Source of the DNA: Spirochaetes bacterium GWE1_32_154
GTDB lineage: Bacteria; Spirochaetota; GWE2-31-10
DNA length: 58,270 nucleotides
Assembly: GCA_001829315.1 (NCBI GenBank)
Contig: MIAY01000009.1
Coordinates: forward strand, 1 to 58,270
Direction: 5' to 3'
Under the pieces are notes generated by a model. That model saw nothing but the letters and a program-made list of their open reading frames with translations. It was not told the origin of the DNA and did no database searches. Position numbers and translations under genes: made by a program. This document shows, in pieces, positions 2,588-29,855 of this stretch; positions within the stretch are counted from its first letter, which is position 1, and each line of letters begins with the position of its first letter.

Positions 2588-3565
2588 GTGCAGAACCACA
2601 AAACAACACCACGAAGTGAATATGATGAAGCCTGGAAAAGTTTAATCGAAGCATTCACAGCCGATTTTTTTGATTTCTACTTCCCGGCATTATATAATCG
2701 TATTGATTTTACACTACCGGTTGAACATAAAGACAAAGAGCTTCAGAAGATATTTTCTAAATCATATCATACCCATAAAGTTGCAGACAAATTGATAGCT
2801 GTCACCCTTAAAAATGGTAAAAAAAGCATCCTCTATATCCACATTGAAGTTCAGGGAATACGCAAAAAAGACTTTGCAGAAAGAATGCTTCACTATCATA
2901 CAAGGATCAAAGACCGGTATAATCATGACATTCTAAGTGTTGCTCTTTTAACTGACGGAAGCAGTAAAAACATTAATAATGTCTATCAATTTAAGTTTGA
3001 AGAGTTTGAATATAAATTCACATTTCCATACAAGAAGATAACGGATTTTAAAGATCAGGGTGAACTACTTTTAACTTTACAAAACCCCTTTGCTTTGGTA
3101 ACATATAGCTTATTAGAATGGCATACATGCAATAAAGAGCAACAAAAGAAATTGGATTTGAAAACAAGACTTACGATACTGTTGCTTGAAAAAGGGTTTA
3201 GTGAAGAGTATATACGAGTGCTATTTAACTTCATTGATTGGGTGATTAAGTTACCGATTGATATTGATAAAAAATTTGAAAATACAGTACTGAATTATCA
3301 GGAGAACAAAAAGATGGCATATATAAATACATTTGAAAGACTACACGGTGCAGAATGGATGATGAAAGGTAAAATCGAAGGTGAAATCAATGGAGAGAAA
3401 AAAGTACTTCTTCGTCAATTAAAACTCAAATTTTTCATTTCTGAACATGATGAAGATATTATTCAAAACTGTAATGATACTTCTAAAATTGAAGAAGCAT
3501 CTGATATGTTGATTTTAGGAAAAGAAAAAGATGAAATTCTTGAAGTTTTGAGAAATAATCTTTAG
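2588..3565 (+). CDS. Rpn-family recombination-promoting nuclease / putative transposase
   Basis: This complete 325-residue member of the COG5464 Rpn group starts with GTG, with GGAGA 5 nt upstream. The nearest ATG (2586) is out of frame. The PD-(D/E)XK fold is indicated by an N-terminal DFFDFYFP segment, an acidic residue near VEHKDKELQ and the HIEVQ motif (E-x-Q form of E-x-K) around residue 92, followed by a helix with RMLHYHTRI. Known members cut DNA and stimulate RecA-independent recombination. The C-terminal 97 residues are duplicated at the left edge of the window. There are no terminal inverted repeats around it, so it is probably not a self-contained insertion sequence. Confidence 0.85.
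   Translation: MQNHKTTPRSEYDEAWKSLIEAFTADFFDFYFPALYNRIDFTLPVEHKDKELQKIFSKSYHTHKVADKLIAVTLKNGKKSILYIHIEVQGIRKKDFAERMLHYHTRIKDRYNHDILSVALLTDGSSKNINNVYQFKFEEFEYKFTFPYKKITDFKDQGELLLTLQNPFALVTYSLLEWHTCNKEQQKKLDLKTRLTILLLEKGFSEEYIRVLFNFIDWVIKLPIDIDKKFENTVLNYQENKKMAYINTFERLHGAEWMMKGKIEGEINGEKKVLLRQLKLKFFISEHDEDIIQNCNDTSKIEEASDMLILGKEKDEILEVLRNNL
3273..3565 (+). repeat. Direct repeat copy 2 (Rpn 3' end)
   Basis: Partner of 1-293. Differences cluster at the 5' side of the repeat. Recombination between the two copies would excise or duplicate the AraC/4Fe-4S segment. Confidence 0.85.
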
Positions 3566-3591
3566 GGAGCCCTTTAGTGATGTCTTTATTC

Positions 3592-3629
3592 TTTGAACAA
3601 ATCCCAGACTATTACATTATTTGTTCAAA
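3592..3629. terminator. Bidirectional hairpin between convergent genes
   Basis: TTTGAACAAAT and ATTTGTTCAAA form a perfect 11-bp stem with a 16-base loop. It lies after the Rpn gene and over the stop codon of the minus-strand gene ending at 3612. The stem is AT-rich and lacks a long U tract, so terminator activity is uncertain. Confidence 0.45.
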
Positions 3630-4352
3630 AAATGAATCTTCTCTCAGTTCGGTTCTTCCCAAGTTGAGTCTTTCAATAATATATTTAACATAACCATGAA
3701 AAGCACTTTCTGGAAATGTTTGAATATATGCTTCTTTTTTATTGAGTGAGATTGAGATTCTTTCCTCATCAAAATTAACAAAACCAAGATAGTTAAACTG
3801 AAAGTTATTTTCTAATAAAGATGACACTTCAGAACACATATTAGAATAAAAACCTACCGAGTCTTCAATGTTTTTAATATTTGATATAACAATACTAATT
3901 TTTTTATTTTCGATTTCATTATCAAGTAATTGTTTTAAAAATTTAAATAAAAAACTTATTGAATTTGATTCTTTGGTAATTATTAAAATAATTTCATCTG
4001 AACATAGTGGTAATTTAAAATTAGTAATATCGGGTTTTTCGAAAATATAAATATCATTAAATTTATTCTCAAGAGTTTGAATAGAGTTGTTTTTTTTATA
4101 AATTCCAAGATCAATTTGTAATTTATCTAATGAAATAGAAGGTATTTTGTTTTTTGAAAAATACTCTGCATTTTTTAAAAGTTTTTCTTTAGAGTTCAAT
4201 TTTATTTGTTCGGTTGTTAGCAAATTCATATTTGAATCGATTAATAATACTTCTTTTTTCATTGCTTTTTTTTGATATAATATATTTTCAATTAATAAAC
4301 CCATTTTCAAAGAATTTTCATTGCCTGTTACAAAATAGACTTTATCATCCAT
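3612..4352 (-). CDS. FlhG/MinD-like protein with degenerate P-loop
   Basis: The 246-residue protein has no signal peptide. Its pattern recalls the FlhG/MinD branch of P-loop ATPases. An N-terminal beta strand is followed by GNENSLKMG where the Walker A loop (GKGGVGKT-type) should be. A VLLIDSN strand follows, and the C-terminus has an NFQFNYLGFVNFD segment ahead of FPESA, like the FlhG stretch that precedes its Pro-rich segment. The deviant Walker lysine is missing, so ATP hydrolysis is doubtful. It is the last gene of the seven-gene run and follows the HD-GYP gene after 9 nt. A role in placing or regulating a membrane complex is inference. The family call is moderate. Confidence 0.5.
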   Translation of the reverse strand: MDDKVYFVTGNENSLKMGLLIENILYQKKAMKKEVLLIDSNMNLLTTEQIKLNSKEKLLKNAEYFSKNKIPSISLDKLQIDLGIYKKNNSIQTLENKFNDIYIFEKPDITNFKLPLCSDEIILIITKESNSISFLFKFLKQLLDNEIENKKISIVISNIKNIEDSVGFYSNMCSEVSSLLENNFQFNYLGFVNFDEERISISLNKKEAYIQTFPESAFHGYVKYIIERLNLGRTELREDSFFEQIM

Positions 4353-4361
4353 GTTACTATC

Positions 4362-6359
4362 CTATTTTTTTATTATTCCGACTTTTTTTAAATAATTTGT
4401 TAATGCATCGATGTGTTGAATATCAAATTTTTTTCTTGCACCATCTCGTATAATTGCAACTGCCTCATTAGGTGATAATTTATCTTTATGCGGTCTTGCA
4501 GATGTTATTGCAACAAATGTTTCTGCTAAACCTATGATTTTAGCAAATAATGGAATCTCTTCACCTTTTAAACCCTCAGGATATCCTGAACCATCATTTC
4601 GTTCATGATGATAAAAAATTCCGTCTTTCATTTCTTGTGGTATAATATACGATTTAAAAAAAGTTATTCCCTGACTTGTATGATCTTGAATGAATTGAAA
4701 ATCTTCTTCTGAAATATCAGTTTTATACATGATTGTTTGAAGTCTTTCTTTATCCATCATTAAATAACCAAAATCATGTGCAATAGAAGTTTTATATAAT
4801 AACTCAACGTCCCCTTTTGCCATACCAAGTGTTAATGCCATTCCTTTAGCAATTTTAGCGGTCTCCAAAGATCGTTCTTTATTACCAAATACATTTTCCA
4901 ATTCTTGCAGTGAACTTAATAAATTCTTAATATCAAGAACATTATGAGAAATAATATCTTCGATGTCGTTTTCGTGTTGTTCGTCAAGTCTTTGTTTATA
5001 GTCTAAACCTTTTGAAGAAAGTGTAAGTTGCATTTTTTCTTGATTATTCGTATTTGCTGTAGATGTTAATGCTTTTTTTACCAATGAATTTGCTTTTTCT
5101 CTAAGATAGTCATCACCTTCCGTGAGATAAGGAAATAAAATCGGTAATACATTACTACCATCAATAAGTTCTCCACTTAATATCTTCATTTCAACAATAT
5201 TCAATATTTCATTTCTTAATTCTTTTTCAGTTTCAAAAATATATTCCCGTACAGTGTTCCAATTTAGTTCACCGGATTTCATTTGAGAATGCATTCTCTT
5301 TAATCGTTCTGATCTGATTAAATCTTTATACATTTCATCTTCATTACTAGTAGAAGTTGTATCATCATTAGATGCAGGGTCAAAACCGATTCTCAATACA
5401 TCATTTGATGAAAGTTGCATTGGTTTATTATAACCCATTCCTGTTGGTGAAAAACCATTGTAATAAGAGCTGTTTTTTCTTAGTCTATTCGCTCGATTTA
5501 TGAAAAATGCGATTAATACAATAATAATGATTATTATAAATAGTATTAAACCAAAAGTAGCAGCAAATATAATGATAATAAGTTGTCTGCTTTCTTTTTT
5601 TTGTGACTCCATAAGTTCTCTTTGTTGTTTCATTTGTTCAACAAGGAAAGCCGTATTATCTTTTCCATCATTTTTATTTGCATTTTCAAGAGTGGTTTTA
5701 TAAACTTTAATGAGTTGATTTATTGTGTCTGTATCTTTTTTAGATGTGGCACTATCATTTGATTTACTCATAGATTCATAATTAATTCTCATTTTTTCTA
5801 TAAGTTTTTTCTGTTCATTAAGTTCTTTTAAAAGGTTTTGATTTTCTTTAGTAGAACTCTCATTAGAAGTAAATACTTGTTTTTTTATTTCCTCAATATT
5901 TTTTTCGGCTTCTTTTGATCTGCTAACAACTTCATTTTTAGTTGTATTGGTATGTGTATTTGATTCTTGAGTTACTTCTTCTTCTTGATTGTTACTAATC
6001 GTATATTGCTGTTGGATAGTTCCGTCAGACAGTCCGCGATTTAAATCGGCGACTTCTTTGTTAGAAGGAAAAATTCGGTATGCTTCTTTTAATAGTATAG
6101 AAGCATCGTTAAATTTTGCTTCAGAAATAAGTTTTTTAGCTTTTATTAGTAGTGCATCAACAAGTGATTTTTTTGCTTTAAAGTTTCGTTCATCTAAACT
6201 AATCGCTTCTTTTAGATTGGTTATAGCACCCTCAATATCCCCTGAATCAATTTTTTCTATTCCAATAGTATATAGTTCTAAAGATTTTTGCTTATCTTCA
6301 GGATATATAAAAAATAAACTGCTTAAAATTAGTATTATTATTATTATTTGTGTTTTCAT
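4362..6359 (-). CDS. Membrane HD-GYP protein with N-terminal TPRs (c-di-GMP phosphodiesterase)
   Basis: The 665-residue protein starts with a signal peptide, then TPR-like helices (about 25-110), a Lys/Glu-rich coiled coil, a strongly hydrophobic membrane segment (about 262-290), a linker and a C-terminal HD-GYP domain (about 470-660). The HD pair is in AHDFGYL near 527, and the signature HHERNDGSGYP is near 583. All expected metal-binding motifs look present, so it should hydrolyse c-di-GMP to pGpG/GMP on the cytoplasmic side while the TPRs sense something in the periplasm. AGAGGG precedes the ATG. It sits 18 nt after the Kelch lipoprotein gene and probably shares its transcript. Confidence 0.85.
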   Translation of the reverse strand: MKTQIIIIILILSSLFFIYPEDKQKSLELYTIGIEKIDSGDIEGAITNLKEAISLDERNFKAKKSLVDALLIKAKKLISEAKFNDASILLKEAYRIFPSNKEVADLNRGLSDGTIQQQYTISNNQEEEVTQESNTHTNTTKNEVVSRSKEAEKNIEEIKKQVFTSNESSTKENQNLLKELNEQKKLIEKMRINYESMSKSNDSATSKKDTDTINQLIKVYKTTLENANKNDGKDNTAFLVEQMKQQRELMESQKKESRQLIIIIFAATFGLILFIIIIIIVLIAFFINRANRLRKNSSYYNGFSPTGMGYNKPMQLSSNDVLRIGFDPASNDDTTSTSNEDEMYKDLIRSERLKRMHSQMKSGELNWNTVREYIFETEKELRNEILNIVEMKILSGELIDGSNVLPILFPYLTEGDDYLREKANSLVKKALTSTANTNNQEKMQLTLSSKGLDYKQRLDEQHENDIEDIISHNVLDIKNLLSSLQELENVFGNKERSLETAKIAKGMALTLGMAKGDVELLYKTSIAHDFGYLMMDKERLQTIMYKTDISEEDFQFIQDHTSQGITFFKSYIIPQEMKDGIFYHHERNDGSGYPEGLKGEEIPLFAKIIGLAETFVAITSARPHKDKLSPNEAVAIIRDGARKKFDIQHIDALTNYLKKVGIIKK

Positions 6360-6377
6360 CTAACCCTCTTTTATTTT

Positions 6378-9300
6378 TTAATTATTTATTTTAGTTATGT
6401 CAAAAGCATATCGTGGGGATAATGTTCCCCCTGTTCCAACGCTTCCCCAACCGGTGGGAAAAGTCAAAGCATCATCAACATTGATTTTTTCAACTGAATT
6501 TAGTACTACACCGGAGGGTGAAGTAATACCACAAAATGTGTAAATAGAATCACCGTAATATTCAGCTTGATTATATGCTCGTGCTGTAAGAAGTGTTTTA
6601 ACCACGGCTCCAAAATTTATCCATGTTGGTGCTGTAGCTCCTGTTGAAAGGGGAAATCGAATCATTTTGCATGTTGTTACTGCTGCTAAATTGGCCGCGA
6701 CAGCACGAATTGGTTCAGACGTTGAAGCTGTTGTTGTTCCGCCACAATGCAGAAAAAAGGCAATATCAGTACCATCGACAGCTTTTTTCTGATACATAAC
6801 ATTTCCTGCTGCAGCACTTGGAACAAATGTTCCGACAAGAGCTGCTTGAGAAATAAATGTATTCAAATTAAGTAAAAAAGCTCCCGTTCCGAGTGATAAA
6901 GCACCGGCGGTAGTATATCTTCCTGCTCCATAAAAAATATTACCTTCATAAACACCGCTACCAAAATTCATCAAGGATCCAGCCATGAGAGGGACATATT
7001 TTCTATCAACGACCCAGGTTTCAGTTTGTGGGTTATACATAGAAATTTCATTGGTAATAAAATACGTTGCAAAGTTTAAATACGTTGCCGGACTTGTAGT
7101 AGTTCCATAGAAATCAGAAGAACCGCCGAAAACATATATATTCCCATTTACATTCTCAGATCGTGCCATAAATTTAGGTGCAGGGTAATCTTGGATCGTT
7201 GACCAAACATTTGATGGCCAAATAGGGCTAGAAACAAACAGCACATCTACTTTTGCTACAAGTTTTTTATTAGAGTCTAATCCGCCAAAAATATAAATTT
7301 TTCCATTTGTAGAACTTACTGTACATCCATATCGAGGTGTTGGAAGCGTTGCAACATTATCGTAAATGATATCAGTTACCGGATCATAAGCATCTATTTG
7401 AGATACAAGATTTGTAAATGGTGCCGAGTAATTAGATGAACCGCCTATCAGGTAAAAACATCTTTGTCTTACAGTAGGTGTAAAATCAGTTCTAAATGTC
7501 TTAAATGTTCTGCTACTATATTGTGAATAAAGAGCTGAACTGTTTTTTACAAATATTGAGTAATAATATGTTGTATTATTTGTTAATCCGGTTGTATCTG
7601 AATAAGTCGTGCCATTATTTTCATAAATAGTAGTTGCTGAAGCATCATTATAAGCTGATGGATATGAATCTGCCTTTCGTTTTATCAAAACACCTGAGAA
7701 ATCAGCGGTAGGATTTATCCATGATAATTCTATACTTGAATCACTTACTACAGAGTTGAAATTAGAAACAATTTCAAGGTTAGTCGATATAATATTTGGA
7801 CTTGAAGTAATTTCTATTGATTTTCTGACACCTAAAGAATAATAGTTTTTACTCGTATTTTTTGTATAAATTGAATAGTAATATACCGTATTAACTAATG
7901 TAGTGCTGTCAGTATATGTGGTAAGACTTCCTGCATACAACGTAGTTGCAGTAGCGTCTGTAGCACTTGAAGGGAAAGCACCGGTTTTTCTTAATACAAG
8001 AACAGAGTCAAAATCACTATCAACCGGATTCGTCCACGTTAATGATGCATTTATTGTCCCGGAAGGTTGTGTGACTGTGAAAGCAGACACTTCAACAGAA
8101 TATATGGTATTAAGGGGAACTATTTCCAATACTGCCTTAGTGCCGAGAGAAAACTTATTAGCTGTGTTTTTTGTATAAACTGAATAATAATATACCGTGT
8201 TAACTAAAGCGGTACTGTCAGTGAATGTGGTAAGATTTCCTGAATACAGTGAAGTTGCAGTAGTATCTGTAGCACTTGAAGGGAAAGTACCGGCTTTTCT
8301 TAATACAAGAACAGAGTCAAAATCACTATCAACCGGATTAGTCCACGTTAATGATGCATTTATTGTCCCGGAAGGTTGTGTGACTGTGAAAGCAGACACT
8401 TCAACAGAATATATGGTATTAAGGGGAACTATTTCAAGCGTAGCTTTAGTGCCGAGAGAAAACTTATTAGTAGTGCTTTTTGTATAAACTGAATAGTAAT
8501 ATACCGTGTTAACTAAAGCGGTACTGTCAGTGAATGTGGTAAGACTTCCTGTATACAGTGAAGTTGCAGTAGTATCTGTAGCACTTGAAGGGAAAGTACC
8601 GGCTTTTCTTAATACAAGAACAGAGTCAAAATCACTATCAACCGGGTTAGTCCACGTTAATGATGCATTTATTGTACCTGAAGCTTGGGTTACAGTGAAA
8701 GCAGACACTTCAACAGAATAAATGGTATTAAGAGGTACTATTTCCAATACTGCCTTAGTGCCGAGAGAAAATTTATTAGCTGTGCTTTTTGTATAAATTG
8801 AATAATAATATACCGTATTAACTAAAGCGGTAGTGTCAGTATATGTGGTAAGATTTCCTGTATATACAGTAGTTGCAGTAGTATCTGTAGCACTTGAAGG
8901 GAAAGCACCGGTTTTTCTTAATACAAGAACAGAGTCAAAATCACTATCAACCGGATTCGTCCACGTTAATGATGCATTTATTGTCCCGGAAGGTTGTGTG
9001 ACTGTGAAAGCAGACACTTCAACAGAATATATGGTATTAAGGGGAACTATTTCCAATACTGCCTTAGTGCCGAGAGAAAACTTATTAGCTGTGTTTTTTG
9101 TATAAACTGAATAATAATATACCGTGTTAACTAAAGCTGTACTGTCAGTAAACGTGGTAAGACTTCCTGTATACATCGTAGTTGCAGTAGCGTCAGTAGC
9201 ACTTGAAGGGAAAGTACCTGTTTTTCTTAATACAAGAACAGAGTTAAAATCACTATCAACCGGGTTAGTCCATGTTAATGATGCATTTATTGTAGCCGGT

Positions 9301-10082
9301 GTTTGAGTAGCAATGAAGTTTGATACTTCATTAGGATAAATATTAATTTGCTGAATTATTTCAATATTTACTTTTTTGCCCGATGAATACTTATTGAGAA
9401 GACTTTTTGTAAACAATGTATAGTAATATATTCTATTTACATCAACTGTTGTGTCATTAAAAGACTCTGCATTTCCTTCATAAACAATGGATGATAATGG
9501 TGAATTAATACTGTTTGGAAAGTAATTTAATGATTTGACAATTGTCACTGTACTAAAACTAACAGCAGTCGGATTTGTCCATGTTATGTTTACAGAAGAA
9601 GTAGCAATAACTTGATTAATTGAAACATTGGCTACATCTTCGCTATATATTTCTGTTATAGGTATCATTTCAATAATTTTCTTAATACCCGGCGAGTACA
9701 ACCCGTTACTATTAATTGTATATATTGTATAATAATAGAGTGTATTAGCTGATAACTGAGAGTCTGTTGTTGATTCTAAGTTTCCGGAATATACAGTAGT
9801 TGCATTACTATCATTATATCCGAGGGGAAATTCATTTTGTTTTCTTACAATAAGAACACTTGAGAAATTACTTTGTGTAGGATTTTTCCATGATAAAGAA
9901 ACATCTAATGAACCGGGTATTTGCTCGCATGTGAAATCTTGAACATCATTTTTATTACCCGTATCCAGAGCTTCTATTCCTTTATCTAACGCTTTTTGTA
10001 AAACATTGGTTGAACAGGAAATAAAAATCGTGCTCAATAGCAATGAATGTATGATAAAGAGTATAATTTTGTTTTTTTTCAT
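6378..10082 (-). CDS. Giant lipoprotein: eight FN3-like repeats plus Kelch repeats
   Basis: The 1234-residue protein begins with a lipoprotein signal (IFISC lipobox, Cys near residue 23). Eight consecutive FN3-like beta-sandwich units follow, each with W-x-NP, LRK, FPSS, YTG and YYYSIYTK landmarks. Units 3-7 are 103 residues long and almost identical. The last third carries Kelch-type motifs such as KIYIFGG and NIYVFGG, expected to form a beta-propeller. It probably sits on the outer membrane surface as an adhesin or binding protein. GAGGAG precedes the ATG. The upstream gene is a paralog with the same architecture, 17 nt away. The DNA-level repeats make length variation likely. Confidence 0.85.
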   Translation of the reverse strand: MKKNKIILFIIHSLLLSTIFISCSTNVLQKALDKGIEALDTGNKNDVQDFTCEQIPGSLDVSLSWKNPTQSNFSSVLIVRKQNEFPLGYNDSNATTVYSGNLESTTDSQLSANTLYYYTIYTINSNGLYSPGIKKIIEMIPITEIYSEDVANVSINQVIATSSVNITWTNPTAVSFSTVTIVKSLNYFPNSINSPLSSIVYEGNAESFNDTTVDVNRIYYYTLFTKSLLNKYSSGKKVNIEIIQQINIYPNEVSNFIATQTPATINASLTWTNPVDSDFNSVLVLRKTGTFPSSATDATATTMYTGSLTTFTDSTALVNTVYYYSVYTKNTANKFSLGTKAVLEIVPLNTIYSVEVSAFTVTQPSGTINASLTWTNPVDSDFDSVLVLRKTGAFPSSATDTTATTVYTGNLTTYTDTTALVNTVYYYSIYTKSTANKFSLGTKAVLEIVPLNTIYSVEVSAFTVTQASGTINASLTWTNPVDSDFDSVLVLRKAGTFPSSATDTTATSLYTGSLTTFTDSTALVNTVYYYSVYTKSTTNKFSLGTKATLEIVPLNTIYSVEVSAFTVTQPSGTINASLTWTNPVDSDFDSVLVLRKAGTFPSSATDTTATSLYSGNLTTFTDSTALVNTVYYYSVYTKNTANKFSLGTKAVLEIVPLNTIYSVEVSAFTVTQPSGTINASLTWTNPVDSDFDSVLVLRKTGAFPSSATDATATTLYAGSLTTYTDSTTLVNTVYYYSIYTKNTSKNYYSLGVRKSIEITSSPNIISTNLEIVSNFNSVVSDSSIELSWINPTADFSGVLIKRKADSYPSAYNDASATTIYENNGTTYSDTTGLTNNTTYYYSIFVKNSSALYSQYSSRTFKTFRTDFTPTVRQRCFYLIGGSSNYSAPFTNLVSQIDAYDPVTDIIYDNVATLPTPRYGCTVSSTNGKIYIFGGLDSNKKLVAKVDVLFVSSPIWPSNVWSTIQDYPAPKFMARSENVNGNIYVFGGSSDFYGTTTSPATYLNFATYFITNEISMYNPQTETWVVDRKYVPLMAGSLMNFGSGVYEGNIFYGAGRYTTAGALSLGTGAFLLNLNTFISQAALVGTFVPSAAAGNVMYQKKAVDGTDIAFFLHCGGTTTASTSEPIRAVAANLAAVTTCKMIRFPLSTGATAPTWINFGAVVKTLLTARAYNQAEYYGDSIYTFCGITSPSGVVLNSVEKINVDDALTFPTGWGSVGTGGTLSPRYAFDITKINN
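7860..9320 (-). repeat. Tandem 309-bp coding repeats (about five units)
   Basis: Equivalent anchor bases fall at 8104, 8413, 8722 and 9031, exactly 309 bp apart, which equals 103 codons. The units are close to identical at DNA level, with many silent positions also conserved. That suggests recent duplication or gene conversion. Confidence 0.9.
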
Positions 10083-14668: not shown

Positions 14669-15676
14669 TTATAAATTGCACTCAATACGATTTCTTCCCT
14701 TCTGTTTTGCTGTATATAGTAGTTTATCAGCTGATATAATAACGTTTTCTATCGTAACAGTATTATCTGGTACTACATTAAAAATTCCAATGCTAAGTGA
14801 TACTCTTTTAATATCAACCTTTTCATGTGGTATGTTTATTCTTTCAATTTCATTTTGGATTTTTTTTGCTACACATGATGCACCTAAAGTATCGGTATCA
14901 GGTAGGAAAATAATGAATTCTTCTCCACCAAATCGAGCAACAATATCACGCGGACGACAGCAGGATTTCTTAAGAATAGAAGATACTAATTGAATGGCTT
15001 GATCACCCATTATGTGACCATATTGATCGTTATATAACTTGAAAAAATCAATATCTATCATCAATAATGAAAAGTTTAGTTTATTTCTGATACAATCTTT
15101 TAGTTCTCTGCTTGCAAGGTCTTTAAAACCCCGCCTATTATAAAGACCGGATAGTTCATCAGTTATCGAAAGTGCTTTTAATATAGTTTCATTATCTATA
15201 AATCGGGTAATATCATCAAATATTCCAACAATACCGGATATTTCACTTTTCTTTTGTAATATTGGAATGAAATCAACTTTCATATTAATGAGAGTATTGT
15301 TAAAATTTAATGTGTATTCGAATTTTGTATTTTCTTTATTAATAAAAACTTCTTTTTTCTTTTGTTCAAAAAATAGAGCATCATTAATAGTATATATTTC
15401 GGAACAAGATTTTCCTATAATATGCTCTTTTGAAAAACCTGTTAATATCTCAAATGCTTTATTACATTCAATAAAACCTTGTTCATTATCTTGAGCAAAA
15501 ATAGGATAGGGTACCGTATCAAGTAATGTGTGTAAAAATTTTAATCGTTCATTTGCTAATCTTCCGGTTTCAATAAGATTATTGATTAATCTGTTCGTTT
15601 TTGATGAATTCAAAATTGATTGAATAGAAAGGTTATGATTTGTAACTTCATCCCTACAAAATATTTCTTCTTCCAT
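14669..15676 (-). CDS. PAS-GGDEF diguanylate cyclase
   Basis: The 335-residue soluble protein has a PAS domain (about 45-165, with GFIECNKAFEILTGFS) and a GGDEF domain (about 170-335). The active-site signature is GGEEF at 250-254, so it should make c-di-GMP from two GTP. RPRD at 241-244 lies five residues before the signature, which is the position of the RxxD inhibitory site, so product feedback is likely. GAGGAT precedes the ATG. The same run also encodes an HD-GYP phosphodiesterase, so synthesis and breakdown of the messenger are linked. Confidence 0.92.
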   Translation of the reverse strand: MEEEIFCRDEVTNHNLSIQSILNSSKTNRLINNLIETGRLANERLKFLHTLLDTVPYPIFAQDNEQGFIECNKAFEILTGFSKEHIIGKSCSEIYTINDALFFEQKKKEVFINKENTKFEYTLNFNNTLINMKVDFIPILQKKSEISGIVGIFDDITRFIDNETILKALSITDELSGLYNRRGFKDLASRELKDCIRNKLNFSLLMIDIDFFKLYNDQYGHIMGDQAIQLVSSILKKSCCRPRDIVARFGGEEFIIFLPDTDTLGASCVAKKIQNEIERINIPHEKVDIKRVSLSIGIFNVVPDNTVTIENVIISADKLLYTAKQKGRNRIECNL

Positions 15677-15696
15677 ATATATATCCTCATATACTT

Positions 15697-17148
15697 CTAT
15701 ACGATTAGTTTGTTTTTTATTTCACTGAATTTTTTTATAACCGGTTCTATTTTTATTGCAAATAATTCTTTAGTCTCAATATTAAAAATTTTTAAAACTT
15801 TATAGTCTATATCTTTAAATTGTAGTTTACCTTCAATATAATAGGTTAATGCATCGGAGAGATAGATTAATGAAACCAGTTTAATATTTTCATCTTTTGC
15901 TTCTAGCGGTATATGATGATATTTTATCGTTTCAACAAGGAAGTCGGGGAAATTCCATTTTTCGGCAAGTTTTGAACCAATAATTGAGTGGTTATAACCA
16001 TCTGTTAGTGATTCAACCATAAAATTGTTTATTCCTTTATTAAAACAAATAGTTTGAATCTGTTGAACAAGCTCAGGTTTTATCCCTCTAACGATTATTT
16101 TACCGAGGTCATGAAGCATTGCACAAACAAAAATATTATCATGTATTGTTTTCAGATTAAATATTTTAGATAGTTCAGTAGCTATAAAAGCTACTTCAGT
16201 TGCGTGTTTCATCATTATTTTAATTTCTGTTATATTATATTTATTCATTAAAGCTCTATTAGTTGAATATGAAAAAACAAAATTTTTTATCCCTCGCACT
16301 CCTATAAGACGAACTGCCTCAGTAGCATTTTCAACTTTATTTGGTAGAGAATAAATTGCTGAATTTGCAGTTTTGAGAAGTTCTGCAATAAATGCAGGGT
16401 CTTTTTCTATAACATTTCCAATAATTTTAAATGTGCTGTCCGGATTATTGAGTACATTTATTACTTCTATAATATGTTGAGGGAATTGAGGAATAGCATT
16501 AACCTCATTAGTAATTGCCTCTGCAATTATGTCACCTTTTTGTGCATTAATAAGATTCAAAGGAATAGTTATATTCGATACGGTAATGAAATCTTTTGTG
16601 AATATTTGAATTGCTTTCTCATCTAAACCTAGTTTTCTTAAGATTAAAATTGATAAAATAATGCCAAAACCTGCACCCTCTGTTTCATCTAAACCGTGTT
16701 CAAAAACGTCTTCCATTGATTTAAATCGTGCAGCTAATTGAAATTTGCTTTTAATTCGTTCTATTTCAACAGGAAGGATTTCTGAATTATTCGATATTTC
16801 TAAAGACAGGTTGTTATTATGATTATTGATTTTAAATTCAATATAGAATTGTTCTTCTTCGGCTTTTTCTATATATTCTTCATAATAAGAAAGTATTTGC
16901 TCTCTAAATCTTTTAATGCCAATTTCATAATGAGATGGATTTTTTATATTAAGATTTGATTTCTCAAAAAAAATTCTTTTTAAATTAGCTTTTTCAGCAT
17001 TGGTAATTATTTCCTTCATTATATAATTTAATTGATCGATATACTCAGGTTTTCTTATTCTGTTTAAATAATTTGTTAATAAGGTTTCAACATACCGTCT
17101 TTCTTTTTCATAGCTTGTAAATCGAAATTTCTCTTCTAATGTATCCAT
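15697..17148 (-). CDS. HATPase-like plus HDOD signalling protein
   Basis: The 483-residue protein joins two domains. The first 205 residues resemble a GHKL ATPase, with an N-box-like EIITNAEKANLKR near residue 46 and a G-box-like ETEGAGFGIILSI near 155, but with no histidine phosphorylation domain. Residues of about 210-420 form an HDOD domain starting at IPQFPQHI, with SAIYSLP and MLHDLGK. HDOD domains are non-catalytic relatives of HD-GYP used in regulation. It is the first gene of the seven-gene run, with AGAGG before the ATG and a candidate promoter 40 bp upstream. It may act as an anti-sigma-like switch or scaffold, which is inference. Confidence 0.8.
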   Translation of the reverse strand: MDTLEEKFRFTSYEKERRYVETLLTNYLNRIRKPEYIDQLNYIMKEIITNAEKANLKRIFFEKSNLNIKNPSHYEIGIKRFREQILSYYEEYIEKAEEEQFYIEFKINNHNNNLSLEISNNSEILPVEIERIKSKFQLAARFKSMEDVFEHGLDETEGAGFGIILSILILRKLGLDEKAIQIFTKDFITVSNITIPLNLINAQKGDIIAEAITNEVNAIPQFPQHIIEVINVLNNPDSTFKIIGNVIEKDPAFIAELLKTANSAIYSLPNKVENATEAVRLIGVRGIKNFVFSYSTNRALMNKYNITEIKIMMKHATEVAFIATELSKIFNLKTIHDNIFVCAMLHDLGKIIVRGIKPELVQQIQTICFNKGINNFMVESLTDGYNHSIIGSKLAEKWNFPDFLVETIKYHHIPLEAKDENIKLVSLIYLSDALTYYIEGKLQFKDIDYKVLKIFNIETKELFAIKIEPVIKKFSEIKNKLIV

Positions 17149-17189
17149 AAAGGCCTCTAAATTCTAAAATAAAAATATAGTTATTAAAG

Positions 17190-17255
17190 ATTATAGAGAA
17201 ATTATTTAAATAATACTATTTGTCTTTTAGTGTAATTTGCTGTACTAAAGTACAG
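17190..17255 (-). promoter_or_regulatory. Operon promoter with perfect 16-bp dyad
   Basis: On the minus strand a TATAAT box (17190-17195) lies 41 bp before the HDOD start codon, with no good -35 box. Upstream, CTGTACT and AGTACAG form a perfect dyad with two central bases (17240-17255). Its centre is about 64 bp before the predicted start of transcription, a place used by class I activators. It resembles the CTGTA/TACAG form of lux-type boxes. The neighbouring gene encodes a LuxR-type regulator. Function is inferred. Confidence 0.5.
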
Positions 17256-17270
17256 TGTATCAATAGGTTA

Positions 17271-18335
17271 TTAATCATTAATCATTAAAAATTTAATCAA
17301 TTCATAACGGTTTGTCGTTTTAGTTTTTAAAAATAAAGACGATAAATTTTTCTTTATCGCAGATTCAGAAATATGTAAATTAAATGCAATCTCTTTAGTT
17401 GAAGAGCCTGTCTTTAACAAAGGAATAATGGTTTTTTCTCGTTTTGTAAAATAGGTGTTATTTATATAGTTATTTTCATTGTTCCTATTTGCAGAATGTA
17501 AAATGATTTGCATTTTTTCAATGGAATCTTTTAACTTATCAAATTCGTTAGTCAATAAACCAATATTAGCATTTTGCGTGATTTTGTAACTGATGTCTTC
17601 AATAAAACAAATTATAAAGTGAAAGAAATCATTATTTTCAATTATTTTACAATGAAATTGTACATAGACATTATAGTCAAGTTTTTCTATTAACATTGTT
17701 TTAAATCGAACAATTTCTGAGTTATGATTTATTAAAGAATCCAAAATTTCTTTAATACTATCTTTAAAGTCTTCTTTAATAATTTCATAAATACTTATTT
17801 GTAAAAGATCATCTCGCGAAATTTTTGTTATAGTTTCAAATTGATTATTTAAATCAATTATTGAACCATTTTTATTTAATAATACTAATCCGATAGGTGC
17901 GTTCCAAAACATTTTGTTTGCAAGAATTTTTTGGTTCTCCAGATCAATGTTTTTTATTACAAGAGTCGATAAATCATAAATAACAACGGTATAACCTGTA
18001 CATTCTTTTAATATATAATAAGGTTGTATCATAATACCTAAATATTTTCTTCCACTAAAATTTGTTGCATATAAATCTTCTTCAATTACTTTGTTAAAAT
18101 CGAAGTGGGTCATATAATTAATCGCATTACCTTTTTTTAGTTCAAGTAACTCATGAGGAGGAATATTAGGATCATCAAATAAATTAAATGAAAAAAGTTG
18201 ATTTTTATCAATTACACCAAATAATTTTAAGCATATTTCATTGCAGTCTAAAAACATACCGGTTTTATCATATATTTCAATTGCTATTGGAAGGTTTTCA
18301 TAAAATGTTTTAAATTGTTCAAAAGTATTTTTCAT
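17271..18335 (-). CDS. PAS-domain LuxR-type transcriptional regulator
   Basis: The 354-residue protein appears to carry two PAS-like sensor modules (about 10-125 and 130-245), the second with APIGLVLLNKNGSIIDLNNQ. After a helical linker comes a C-terminal LuxR/GerE helix-turn-helix (about 295-352) containing REKTIIPLLKTGSSTKEIA and SESAIKKNLSSLF. No receiver domain is present, so it probably senses a ligand or redox state directly. There is no clear ribosome-binding site before the ATG. It lies 122 nt upstream of the c-di-GMP/Kelch operon on the same strand and is its likely regulator. The PBP gene is divergent. Confidence 0.85.
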   Translation of the reverse strand: MKNTFEQFKTFYENLPIAIEIYDKTGMFLDCNEICLKLFGVIDKNQLFSFNLFDDPNIPPHELLELKKGNAINYMTHFDFNKVIEEDLYATNFSGRKYLGIMIQPYYILKECTGYTVVIYDLSTLVIKNIDLENQKILANKMFWNAPIGLVLLNKNGSIIDLNNQFETITKISRDDLLQISIYEIIKEDFKDSIKEILDSLINHNSEIVRFKTMLIEKLDYNVYVQFHCKIIENNDFFHFIICFIEDISYKITQNANIGLLTNEFDKLKDSIEKMQIILHSANRNNENNYINNTYFTKREKTIIPLLKTGSSTKEIAFNLHISESAIKKNLSSLFLKTKTTNRYELIKFLMIND

Positions 18336-27516: not shown

Positions 27517-27873
27517 ATGAGTTTTTGTTATTTAGAAAAAGATAAAAAAACGTTTGAGTATTTTAAAGAGTATTTAAGACATCTTGAGTCAAGTAGTTTA
27601 AGTTGTTTTATACTGGATAATCAGATTCAGGTCAGGGAAATGTGTGATCATTTATATTCAAACGGCTATACAGTTGATGATGACGGGGCTGTTATTGAAT
27701 GGGTTAAAAACAATGCAGAAAATTTTAGAAATTATCTAAACACAATTAAATTAGTGTATGTCGTTTGGAAATGTATGGGTAATACATGGGATGATATAAA
27801 TTGGGATAACTTTATACGAATTGAGGATAATATCAATCAGTTAAAATCTACTTGTCTTGACACAATTTTTTAA
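27517..27873 (+). CDS. Small hypothetical protein
   Basis: I set the start at 27517 because GGAGGGG lies 4 nt before this ATG. The longer frame from a TTG at 27499 would place that site inside the gene. The 118-residue protein is soluble and acidic, with helical stretches and several Trp residues near the end (VWKCMGNTWDDINWDNF). No family was recognised. Its TAA stop shares the palindrome TTAA with the stop of the convergent CheW gene. Confidence 0.65.
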   Translation: MSFCYLEKDKKTFEYFKEYLRHLESSSLSCFILDNQIQVREMCDHLYSNGYTVDDDGAVIEWVKNNAENFRNYLNTIKLVYVVWKCMGNTWDDINWDNFIRIEDNINQLKSTCLDTIF

Positions 27874-28346
27874 GAAGCATTAATAGAATCCATTCTGATT
27901 ATTTCTTTGGATATTAATATTTTGTTTATATCTAAAACGATTGCTATTTCCTCATTAAATTTTACCATACCTTTTAAATATTTACTTTTATTTCCGGCAC
28001 CGATTTTAGGTGGAGTCTGAATACTTTTTTCATCAATATCATGAACTTCATACACTTCGTCAACTGCCATACCAAGAAGATAATCCGAATCATTTTCATT
28101 TATTTCTACTATAATAAAGATCGATCTGTCATCATATTCTTTTTCATCTATTCCAAACTTGATTCGTAAATCAATAATAGGTATTATTTTACCCCGAAGA
28201 TTAATGACTCCTTTAAGATATTTTTGAGCGTCACGAACAAGAGTTATTTTTTCAAAACGTATTATTTCTTTAACACTTGAAATATTGATGCCATACTTTT
28301 CTGAACCGACAGAAAAGAAAATATGTTTATCAGTTAGAACATTCAT
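27870..28346 (-). CDS. CheW-like chemotaxis coupling protein
   Basis: The start at 28346 follows a strong GGAGG, so the seven residues upstream in the open frame are not coding. The 158-residue protein is one CheW domain, with EKYGINISSVKEIIR, the hallmark LKGVINLRGKIIPIIDLR near residue 45, and LLGMAVDEVYEV. CheW links receptors to the CheA kinase. It is divergent from the PYP-like/kinase pair, which suggests a possible link between light or PAS sensing and motility. There is no CheA or receptor in the window. Confidence 0.9.
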   Translation of the reverse strand: MNVLTDKHIFFSVGSEKYGINISSVKEIIRFEKITLVRDAQKYLKGVINLRGKIIPIIDLRIKFGIDEKEYDDRSIFIIVEINENDSDYLLGMAVDEVYEVHDIDEKSIQTPPKIGAGNKSKYLKGMVKFNEEIAIVLDINKILISKEIIRMDSINAS

Positions 28347-28432
28347 AATTCCTCCGGGAATTTGCAATATAATTTATTTTAACATATAATTATTAAAAAT
28401 GCTTAATTAAATACACATTTTCAGGAGGAAAT

Positions 28433-28786
28433 ATGAATTTTTCAGATTTAGATTTATTTGAAAAATTAATTATTGCATCAGACGATGATTTAGATGCAGT
28501 CAATTTTGGCATAATTGGTATTAATAATCAAAACAATGTAGTTATTTATAATAAAGCAGAAGAAGAATATTCAAGTTATCACCGTAATTCTGTAGTTGGA
28601 AAAAACCTTTTTCTTGATATTGCACCCTGTATGAATAATTATATGGTTGCTCTCAAATTTGAAGAACGTGATAGTTTTGATGAGACAATTCCATATGTGT
28701 TGAGTTTTAAAGTAAAGCCTGCACCTGTACAACTCCGGTTAATCAAAAAAGATGGAAATGGATTTGTTTTAATTAAAAAGGGGTAA
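28433..28786 (+). CDS. Photoactive yellow protein-like PAS protein
   Basis: The 117-residue protein is a single PAS domain that aligns without gaps to Halorhodospira PYP across the chromophore pocket. Tyr39, Glu43 and Cys66 match PYP Tyr42, Glu46 and Cys69. The neighbouring phrases GKNLFLDIAPC and IYNKAEE correspond to GKNFFKDVAPC and QYNAAEG. Arg52 of PYP is Tyr here and Thr50 is Ser. In PYP the cysteine carries p-coumaric acid and makes a blue-light sensor. AGGAGGAA precedes the ATG. The histidine kinase starts one base after the stop. No chromophore-making genes are nearby, so use of another ligand or none remains possible. Confidence 0.75.
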   Translation: MNFSDLDLFEKLIIASDDDLDAVNFGIIGINNQNNVVIYNKAEEEYSSYHRNSVVGKNLFLDIAPCMNNYMVALKFEERDSFDETIPYVLSFKVKPAPVQLRLIKKDGNGFVLIKKG

Positions 28787-28787
28787 T

Positions 28788-29855
28788 ATGACGGAACTTG
28801 AGGAATTATATGAGTTTTTTTATTTAACGCCGGTAGGTTTAGCGAAGGTGTCATTCGATGGTGTTGTAGAGCAGATTAATCCTTTTATGGTTAATATATT
28901 GATGTCAATTGATAACGAATATTCAGTTCATAATAATTTTTTCAAATCTATCAGTAAGTATGATGTCAATCTGAAAGAATTATCAGAAAAGTTAATAGAA
29001 AATAAAAATGAAAGAGATATAAATAATTATATAATGACTATAAATGATAAATCAATTAAGAAGTTACGACTGAAATGCGGGAAAATAACCGGTGACCGTT
29101 TCATAATGGTTTTAGAAAACATTACAGAATTTGTAACAGCAAGTGAAGAAAAAGACGCTATAGAATTAGAACTTGATAATCAAAAAGAAAGACTGGCTAA
29201 AATTGGTCAGGTGATTAGAATGGTTGTTCACGATTTAAGAAATCCCCTATCAAACATTAAAACAATTAGCGATATGGTTGAATTAGCATCAGTCGAAGAA
29301 GCAAGAGAATTACTGCAGGAAAATATAAATGTTATTCTCGATGAAATAAATGGTATTATTGGTGATATGTTAGATTATACCAGAGCCGAGATACCAAAGT
29401 TAGTTCCTGTCAGTATAGCTGTAATAAATTATCACCTGTCAATGAAATTTGATCTTATGATGAAAGAGTCCGGTGTAACTATTGAATATTATTCAGTTGA
29501 TGATTTTGATTTACTGTGTGAAGAAAGTAAAATCGTAAGAGTATTTAATAATATTGTCGGGAATGCCATTAAAGCACTTGTCAGTCATAAAATTTCTAAT
29601 CCTGTTATCAAAGTGACAATCGAAAAGTCAAATGAAAATGCTTTAATTACAATTAAAGATAATGGTGATGGAATCCCTGATGAATTAATTGGTAAGCTTT
29701 TTGAGCCTTTTGCTTTTAAATCAGGTTATGTCGGAAATGGTATTGGTTTACCCATTGTAAAAAGCATTATTGATATGCATAATGGTTCAATCTCAGTTAC
29801 TTCGGGCAAAGATGGAACAGAATTTAAAATTATGATTCCGTTAGCAGTTTCCTGA
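28788..29855 (+). CDS. PAS sensor histidine kinase
   Basis: The 355-residue soluble kinase has a PAS-like region (about 1-120) and a HisKA helix with the phospho-acceptor in VVHDLRNPLSN near residue 147. The ATPase domain has an N box (NNIVGNAIKAL), G1 (DNGDGIP) and G2 (GNGIGLPIVK). It lacks membrane segments, so its signal is intracellular. It follows the PYP-like gene by one base and AAGGGG overlaps that gene's end, so the two are translated together and the small PAS protein is the likely input. No response regulator is adjacent. The 3' end overlaps the convergent TIM-barrel gene by 26 bases. Confidence 0.93.
   Translation: MTELEELYEFFYLTPVGLAKVSFDGVVEQINPFMVNILMSIDNEYSVHNNFFKSISKYDVNLKELSEKLIENKNERDINNYIMTINDKSIKKLRLKCGKITGDRFIMVLENITEFVTASEEKDAIELELDNQKERLAKIGQVIRMVVHDLRNPLSNIKTISDMVELASVEEARELLQENINVILDEINGIIGDMLDYTRAEIPKLVPVSIAVINYHLSMKFDLMMKESGVTIEYYSVDDFDLLCEESKIVRVFNNIVGNAIKALVSHKISNPVIKVTIEKSNENALITIKDNGDGIPDELIGKLFEPFAFKSGYVGNGIGLPIVKSIIDMHNGSISVTSGKDGTEFKIMIPLAVS

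Follow-up and report, generated by a model that had tools for sequence, protein, structure and literature searches.

Our computations show that photoactive yellow proteins (PYPs) fitting the published clade C are paired near-exclusively, and across phyla, with one PAS-like domain that opens the signaling protein encoded downstream. This docking-like N-terminal domain, which is fused to varied outputs (histidine kinase, GGDEF, EAL, and HD), is apparently undescribed. One such pair occurs in Spirochaetes bacterium GWE1_32_154 (Spirochaetota; 4.03 Mb in 43 contigs) within the window, i.e., the whole 58,270-nucleotide stretch of contig C9 that was analyzed here. Based on sequence and modeled structure, we consider this pair to be a two-component sensor for blue light whose parts are distributed over two polypeptides, with a probability of roughly 0.6; the light response, the chromophore, and the contact between the two proteins are the presumptive elements of this reading.

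The coordinates of the pair and of its divergent neighbor are collected in Table 1. The kinase ORF starts one base past the PYP stop codon and the CheW gene lies divergently upstream, both as originally described. Within the kinase, HisKA spans residues 140–201 and HATPase_c residues 246–353, and the motifs are complete (H148, NxxGNA, DNGDGIP, and GNGIGL). Among the window ORFs, no response regulator gene adjoins the kinase. The proposed coupling of PYP and kinase gains support from a second genus of the family (G067, Spirochaetes bacterium isolate MAG.183, the nearest relative with the pair), where the same gene pair is present and the PYP, at 43% identity, keeps the Tyr, Glu, and Cys residues discussed below. 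Elsewhere in the window (14669–18335, minus strand), three neighboring signaling genes encode a PAS-GGDEF protein, one that is HDOD-like behind an ATPase-like N-terminus, and one that joins two PAS-like parts to a LuxR-type C-terminus, as judged from the translations by eye and, for PAS, by search.

Table 1 Features of the PYP–kinase pair and the adjacent CheW gene (window coordinates).
Feature	Position	Strand	Basis
Single-domain PYP, clade-C type, 117 aa	28433..28786	+	homology, fold model, tree
Shine-Dalgarno AGGAGGA of the PYP gene	28423..28429	+	direct reading
Tyr39 codon (PYP Tyr42)	28547..28549	+	alignment
Glu43 codon (PYP Glu46)	28559..28561	+	alignment
Cys66 codon (PYP Cys69, chromophore thioester position)	28628..28630	+	alignment
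Soluble histidine kinase, 355 aa, without a transmembrane stretch	28788..29855	+	ORF and domain search
Clade-specific partner PAS-like domain at the kinase N-terminus	28794..29171	+	profile E 2.8e-33; model; no Pfam match
Putative phospho-acceptor His148 in HDLRNPL (H-box)	29229..29231	+	role inferred from the HisKA family
CheW gene, divergent, probably outside the system	27870..28346	-	ORF, ATG start

Sequence comparison and modeling both indicate that the small ORF is a genuine PYP relative with the full PYP fold. It matched PYPs in the PDB, including Halorhodospira halophila variants, with phmmer E-values of 3e-11 to 2e-10, and NCBIfam TIGR02373 with an E-value of 5e-14 (52 bits). The latter score falls below the equivalog cut-off of 143, which we did not treat as defining because, according to PMC9664959, only about 20% of PYPs are recovered by this model. 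The alignment bore out the predicted correspondence of Tyr39, Glu43, and Cys66 with PYP Tyr42, Glu46, and Cys69, and a homolog carrying the Cys69 equivalent is what Xing et al. 2022 count as a member of the PYP family. A gapless alignment over the whole pocket had also been proposed; this held to about residue 78 but not beyond, where three residues are deleted before beta-4. In the part of the pocket past this gap, Phe92, Tyr94, Phe96, and Met100 are represented by Ile86, Tyr88, Leu90, and Val94, while Phe62 and Trp119 are replaced by Leu59 and Phe111, respectively. Several pocket residues (Leu59, Leu90, Val94, and Glu44) therefore deviate from PYP, which speaks against the proposed light sensing.

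The AlphaFold2 model of the window PYP (pLDDT 95) had only PYPs as its best PDB matches (TM 0.93 and rmsd 1.5 to 2phy), compared with a TM of 0.63 for the best-ranked non-PYP PAS structure, which marks the fold as that of PYP specifically and not of PAS domains at large. The original prediction had named two outcomes that would count against it, namely a model placing Cys66 outside a PYP-like pocket and close homologs that lose the three residues. Neither was seen: the modeled fold is that of PYP, and all 30 Burkholderiaceae homologs chosen by profile keep the equivalents of Tyr42, Glu46, and Cys69. The profile-selected set was used for this purpose because the first 29 relatives had been found by search patterns, one of which includes the Cys, so that its presence in them is no evidence. 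In common with H. halophila PYP, the window PYP has the fold, the single domain, and the three residue equivalents; it differs in its 26% identity in the structural alignment, the three-residue deletion, the loss of Phe92, Phe96, and Trp119, the lack of a linked tyrosine ammonia-lyase (TAL) or ligase, and its kinase neighbor.

In a tree of 87 PYP rows (81 different), the window PYP was placed inside a 61-row group that was split (100/99) from clade A, which contains H. halophila PYP, and from clade B-like spirochaete PYPs. Within this group it joined sequences from G067, a Geobacteraceae bacterium, Desulforhopalus, and Desulfamplus (99/77; identities 40–53%). The published clade C is found mostly in Burkholderiales, beside GGDEF genes, and has lost Phe92, Phe96, and Trp119; it comes with no wet-lab datum (PMC9664959). 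Our 61-row group fits this description, by which, rather than by the authors' data set, the name was assigned. The window PYP resembles clade C in its tree position, in the loss of the same three residues (here Ile86, Leu90, and Phe111), and in having a signaling gene downstream in the same operon, and differs in its spirochaete host, in a kinase instead of a cyclase, and in Val94 at the highly conserved Met100 position. G067 and 30/30 Burkholderiaceae have Met there; since some other group members also have Val, we regard Val94 as a deviation at the level of individual members. The spread of the clade is patchy (spirochaetes, desulfobacteria, and alpha-, beta-, and gammaproteobacteria). Among the 393 Spirochaetota genomes searched, the other PYPs that were placed in the tree fall outside clade C, and most of those for which a wider flank was fetched adjoin an aromatic lyase and a ligase. 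We found no earlier report of a clade-C PYP in a spirochaete in the open-access literature.

The domain shared by the downstream genes is a stretch of ~130 amino acids with the pattern 'E.LL.FLY.aPvGl....dG.i.m.NP...qLl.pl'. Of the 29 loci of window-PYP relatives, 26 had a readable downstream ORF, which in every case starts with this domain, and so do the kinases of the window and of G067. Two of the three other loci end at or just past the PYP gene; the third (L074) shows no partner gene, and its genome has a different PYP with a partner. The partner gene starts close past the PYP stop codon or overlaps it, with stop and start codons often overlapping. Pfam matched the stretch in only 1/27 members, the window kinase not being among them; the model of the domain in the kinase (pLDDT 90) has a predicted PAS/LOV-like fold with a long helix at its end. 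What follows the domain varies: among 25 proteins, the outputs were GGDEF (14), histidine kinase (8), EAL (3), and HD (2).

To quantify the pairing, a partner profile trained on PYP neighbors was run on whole genomes. Across the 393 Spirochaetota it matched only in the window genome and G067, each time directly behind a clade-C PYP. Counting the best 14 candidates per genome in 295 Burkholderiaceae, the partner occurred in 59 genomes and PYP in 58, all of them within the 59 (Fisher p 3e-61), and the partner lay directly downstream of 61/61 readable clade-C PYPs vs. 0/15 clade-A PYPs. The 16 Burkholderiaceae PYPs without a downstream partner comprise these 15, which were typed by clade profiles or tree because PYP score alone failed to separate clades A and C, and one clade-C PYP at a contig end. 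Seen from the other side, 107 of the 114 Burkholderiaceae partner domains are inside a PYP operon (61 directly behind PYP and 46 as tandem second copies), and 7 are elsewhere. PYP and partner distances were correlated (r = 0.81; 0/5000 permutations), a result that joint inheritance of adjacent genes could also produce.

In the signal chain that we infer for the window pair, from chromophore and light response through physical contact and direction of effect to the response regulator, the PYP would bind p-coumaric acid through a thioester at Cys66, and light would isomerize this ligand and change the shape of the PYP. The PYP would then dock on, or leave, the PAS-like domain of the kinase, and the change could pass along the helix behind this domain into the HisKA/HATPase core, altering phosphorylation of His148 and, in turn, that of a response regulator presumably encoded elsewhere. 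More generally, clade-C PYPs probably constitute a modular split photoreceptor, in which a stand-alone PYP acts on a dedicated, as yet unnamed PAS-like receiver attached to kinases, diguanylate cyclases, and EAL- or HD-type phosphodiesterases. The spirochaete pair would be the kinase version outside Proteobacteria, and in many Burkholderiaceae a single PYP would control two tandem outputs.

With regard to the ligand, the original prediction had pointed out that the window holds neither TAL nor coumaroyl ligase, which is correct, and had taken this to mean that Cys66 may hold another ligand, which loses its force with a lyase of the PYP-linked sub-family elsewhere in the genome. The genome-wide check for TAL returned one aromatic lyase only (C17:108260-109831). 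It has the motif of PYP-linked lyases ([YF]HGxGxG / GxFYGGHI) and forms one sub-family (100/99) with lyases adjoining PYP genes in other spirochaetes, Glaciimonas, and an Oxalobacteraceae bacterium. As a TAL dedicated to PYP it was rejected: its orthologs (61–68% identity) occur in 9/9 members of the order, only two of which have a PYP, and also in another spirochaete family that lacks PYP; its principal function is therefore a different or a wider one. A histidine ammonia-lyase is also unlikely, since no urocanase was found in the genome and the motif is unlike that of the separate SH/GNFHGQP-type group. Response regulator and receiver-PAS-kinase genes are located directly upstream of this lyase (L009, L078). 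Eight AMP-binding matches were obtained for the ligase step in the window genome, none clearly orthologous to PYP-linked ligases (closest candidate about 25–27% identity). Nonetheless, p-coumarate appears to be the likeliest ligand, because the genome's lyase shares motif and sub-family with the PYP-linked ones and because two clade-C relatives adjoin both enzymes: in Oxalobacteraceae IMCC9480 (L058), ligase, lyase, and clade-C PYP genes stand in a row, and a lyase and ligase cluster also adjoins the Glaciimonas locus L161 described below. The lyase gene of L058 (1919–3490) contains one in-frame TAA and may be a pseudogene or reflect an assembly error.

These observations bear on the alternatives in different ways. 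It is possible, if unlikely, that the receptor is split as proposed but that Cys66 holds a different ligand or senses redox state or thiols instead of light. The missing lyase and ligase near the pair, the lack of a clear p-coumaroyl ligase and of a PYP-dedicated lyase in the genome, and the several deviating pocket positions would all agree with such a role; however, 30/30 homologs retain the Cys along with Tyr39 and Glu43, the equivalents of the residues in contact with the p-coumarate phenolate, whereas the redox-type PYPs of methylobacteria lose Cys69 and change Tyr42 (PMC9664959), and there are the two relatives with adjoining enzymes. A quite unlikely variant is that the PYP is charged by p-coumaroyl-type acids of plant or algal origin taken up from its surroundings and senses light only when this ligand is supplied. 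Uptake has been proposed for published pyp operons, only 5% of which contain TAL (PMC12826048), and would suit a pair without linked enzymes, but the lyase in the window genome has the PYP-linked motif and, with no urocanase in the genome, is not a standard lyase of histidine utilization.

The pairing itself could be one of inheritance only, the PYP and its downstream gene having been transferred together without working together. Clade C is patchily spread and neighbors can stay linked after transfer, yet output domains were swapped on many occasions without separating PYP from the N-terminal domain, and the stop and start codons of the two genes often overlap. Because chance linkage would not conserve only the partner domain, we view this explanation as highly improbable. 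Least likely of all is phototaxis, with the PYP acting through the divergent CheW instead of, or besides, the kinase. CheW is about 85 bases away, and Leptospira clade-B PYPs do adjoin chemoreceptors (PMC9664959), but the link to motility that had originally been suggested found no support in our data. The window CheW is one of eight CheW-domain matches in the genome, its closest outside relatives (53–54% identical) belong to genomes without PYP, and a search around the 29 related PYP loci turned up no CheW relative; CheW is probably not a part of the system.

Our preferred reading, a stand-alone PYP that signals to the PAS-like domain of a separate kinase, can be compared with several known systems. 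The claim of a new form of PYP signaling does not hold as such: PYPs of Spirochaetota and histidine kinase genes in pyp operons have been published (PMC9664959 and PMC12826048), the latter source giving HisKA/HATPase genes in 17/113 operons, and GGDEF neighbors of clade-C PYPs are also on record (PMC9664959). The operons with HisKA/HATPase, like the window, combine PYP and kinase, but the kinase is mostly upstream there and downstream here, and the available part of PMC12826048 makes no mention of the partner domain. Ppr of Rhodospirillum centenum (PYP-phytochrome-histidine kinase) likewise uses PYP as the input to a histidine kinase, in one fused chain with phytochrome, whereas the window has two chains and no phytochrome. 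A stand-alone PAS-type sensor with a separate transducer has been proposed for CetA/CetB and for Leptospira PYP with a sensorless chemoreceptor (PMC9664959); the transducer is a chemoreceptor there, whereas in the window it is a kinase that is soluble and itself carries a PAS-like domain.

No published description of the partner domain as the common factor of these operons was found in the open-access literature, though a partial one, for example in older PYP-diversity surveys, is conceivable. For H. halophila PYP, the search for a partner has had no success (Xing et al. 2022), and the PYP signal chain is considered an important gap (Dohmen et al. 2025). The pairing suggests an answer to how stand-alone PYPs pass on their signal, and a partner domain that is both clade-wide and clade-specific provides a named candidate receiver for single-domain PYPs. 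Its naturally swappable outputs could serve as small light switches.

Some individual loci deserve description. The 46 tandem second partner genes in the 295 Burkholderiaceae indicate that one PYP may serve two outputs; in the one tandem locus scanned (L161), one output is a cyclase and the other a GGDEF-EAL protein. In this Glaciimonas locus (G408:C19:267000-277000, positions 2780–9856), the clade-C operon (PYP, PAS-GGDEF, and GGDEF-EAL) has the partner domain at the start of both outputs and is divergent from a cluster of lyase, clade-A PYP, and ligase genes, so that two PYP types stand side by side. In G463:C42, a clade-A and a clade-C PYP are separated by ~2 kb and lie on opposite strands. 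One Geobacteraceae genome (G393; L155–L158) has three clade-C PYP/partner pairs together with two partner-domain genes that have no PYP in their vicinity.
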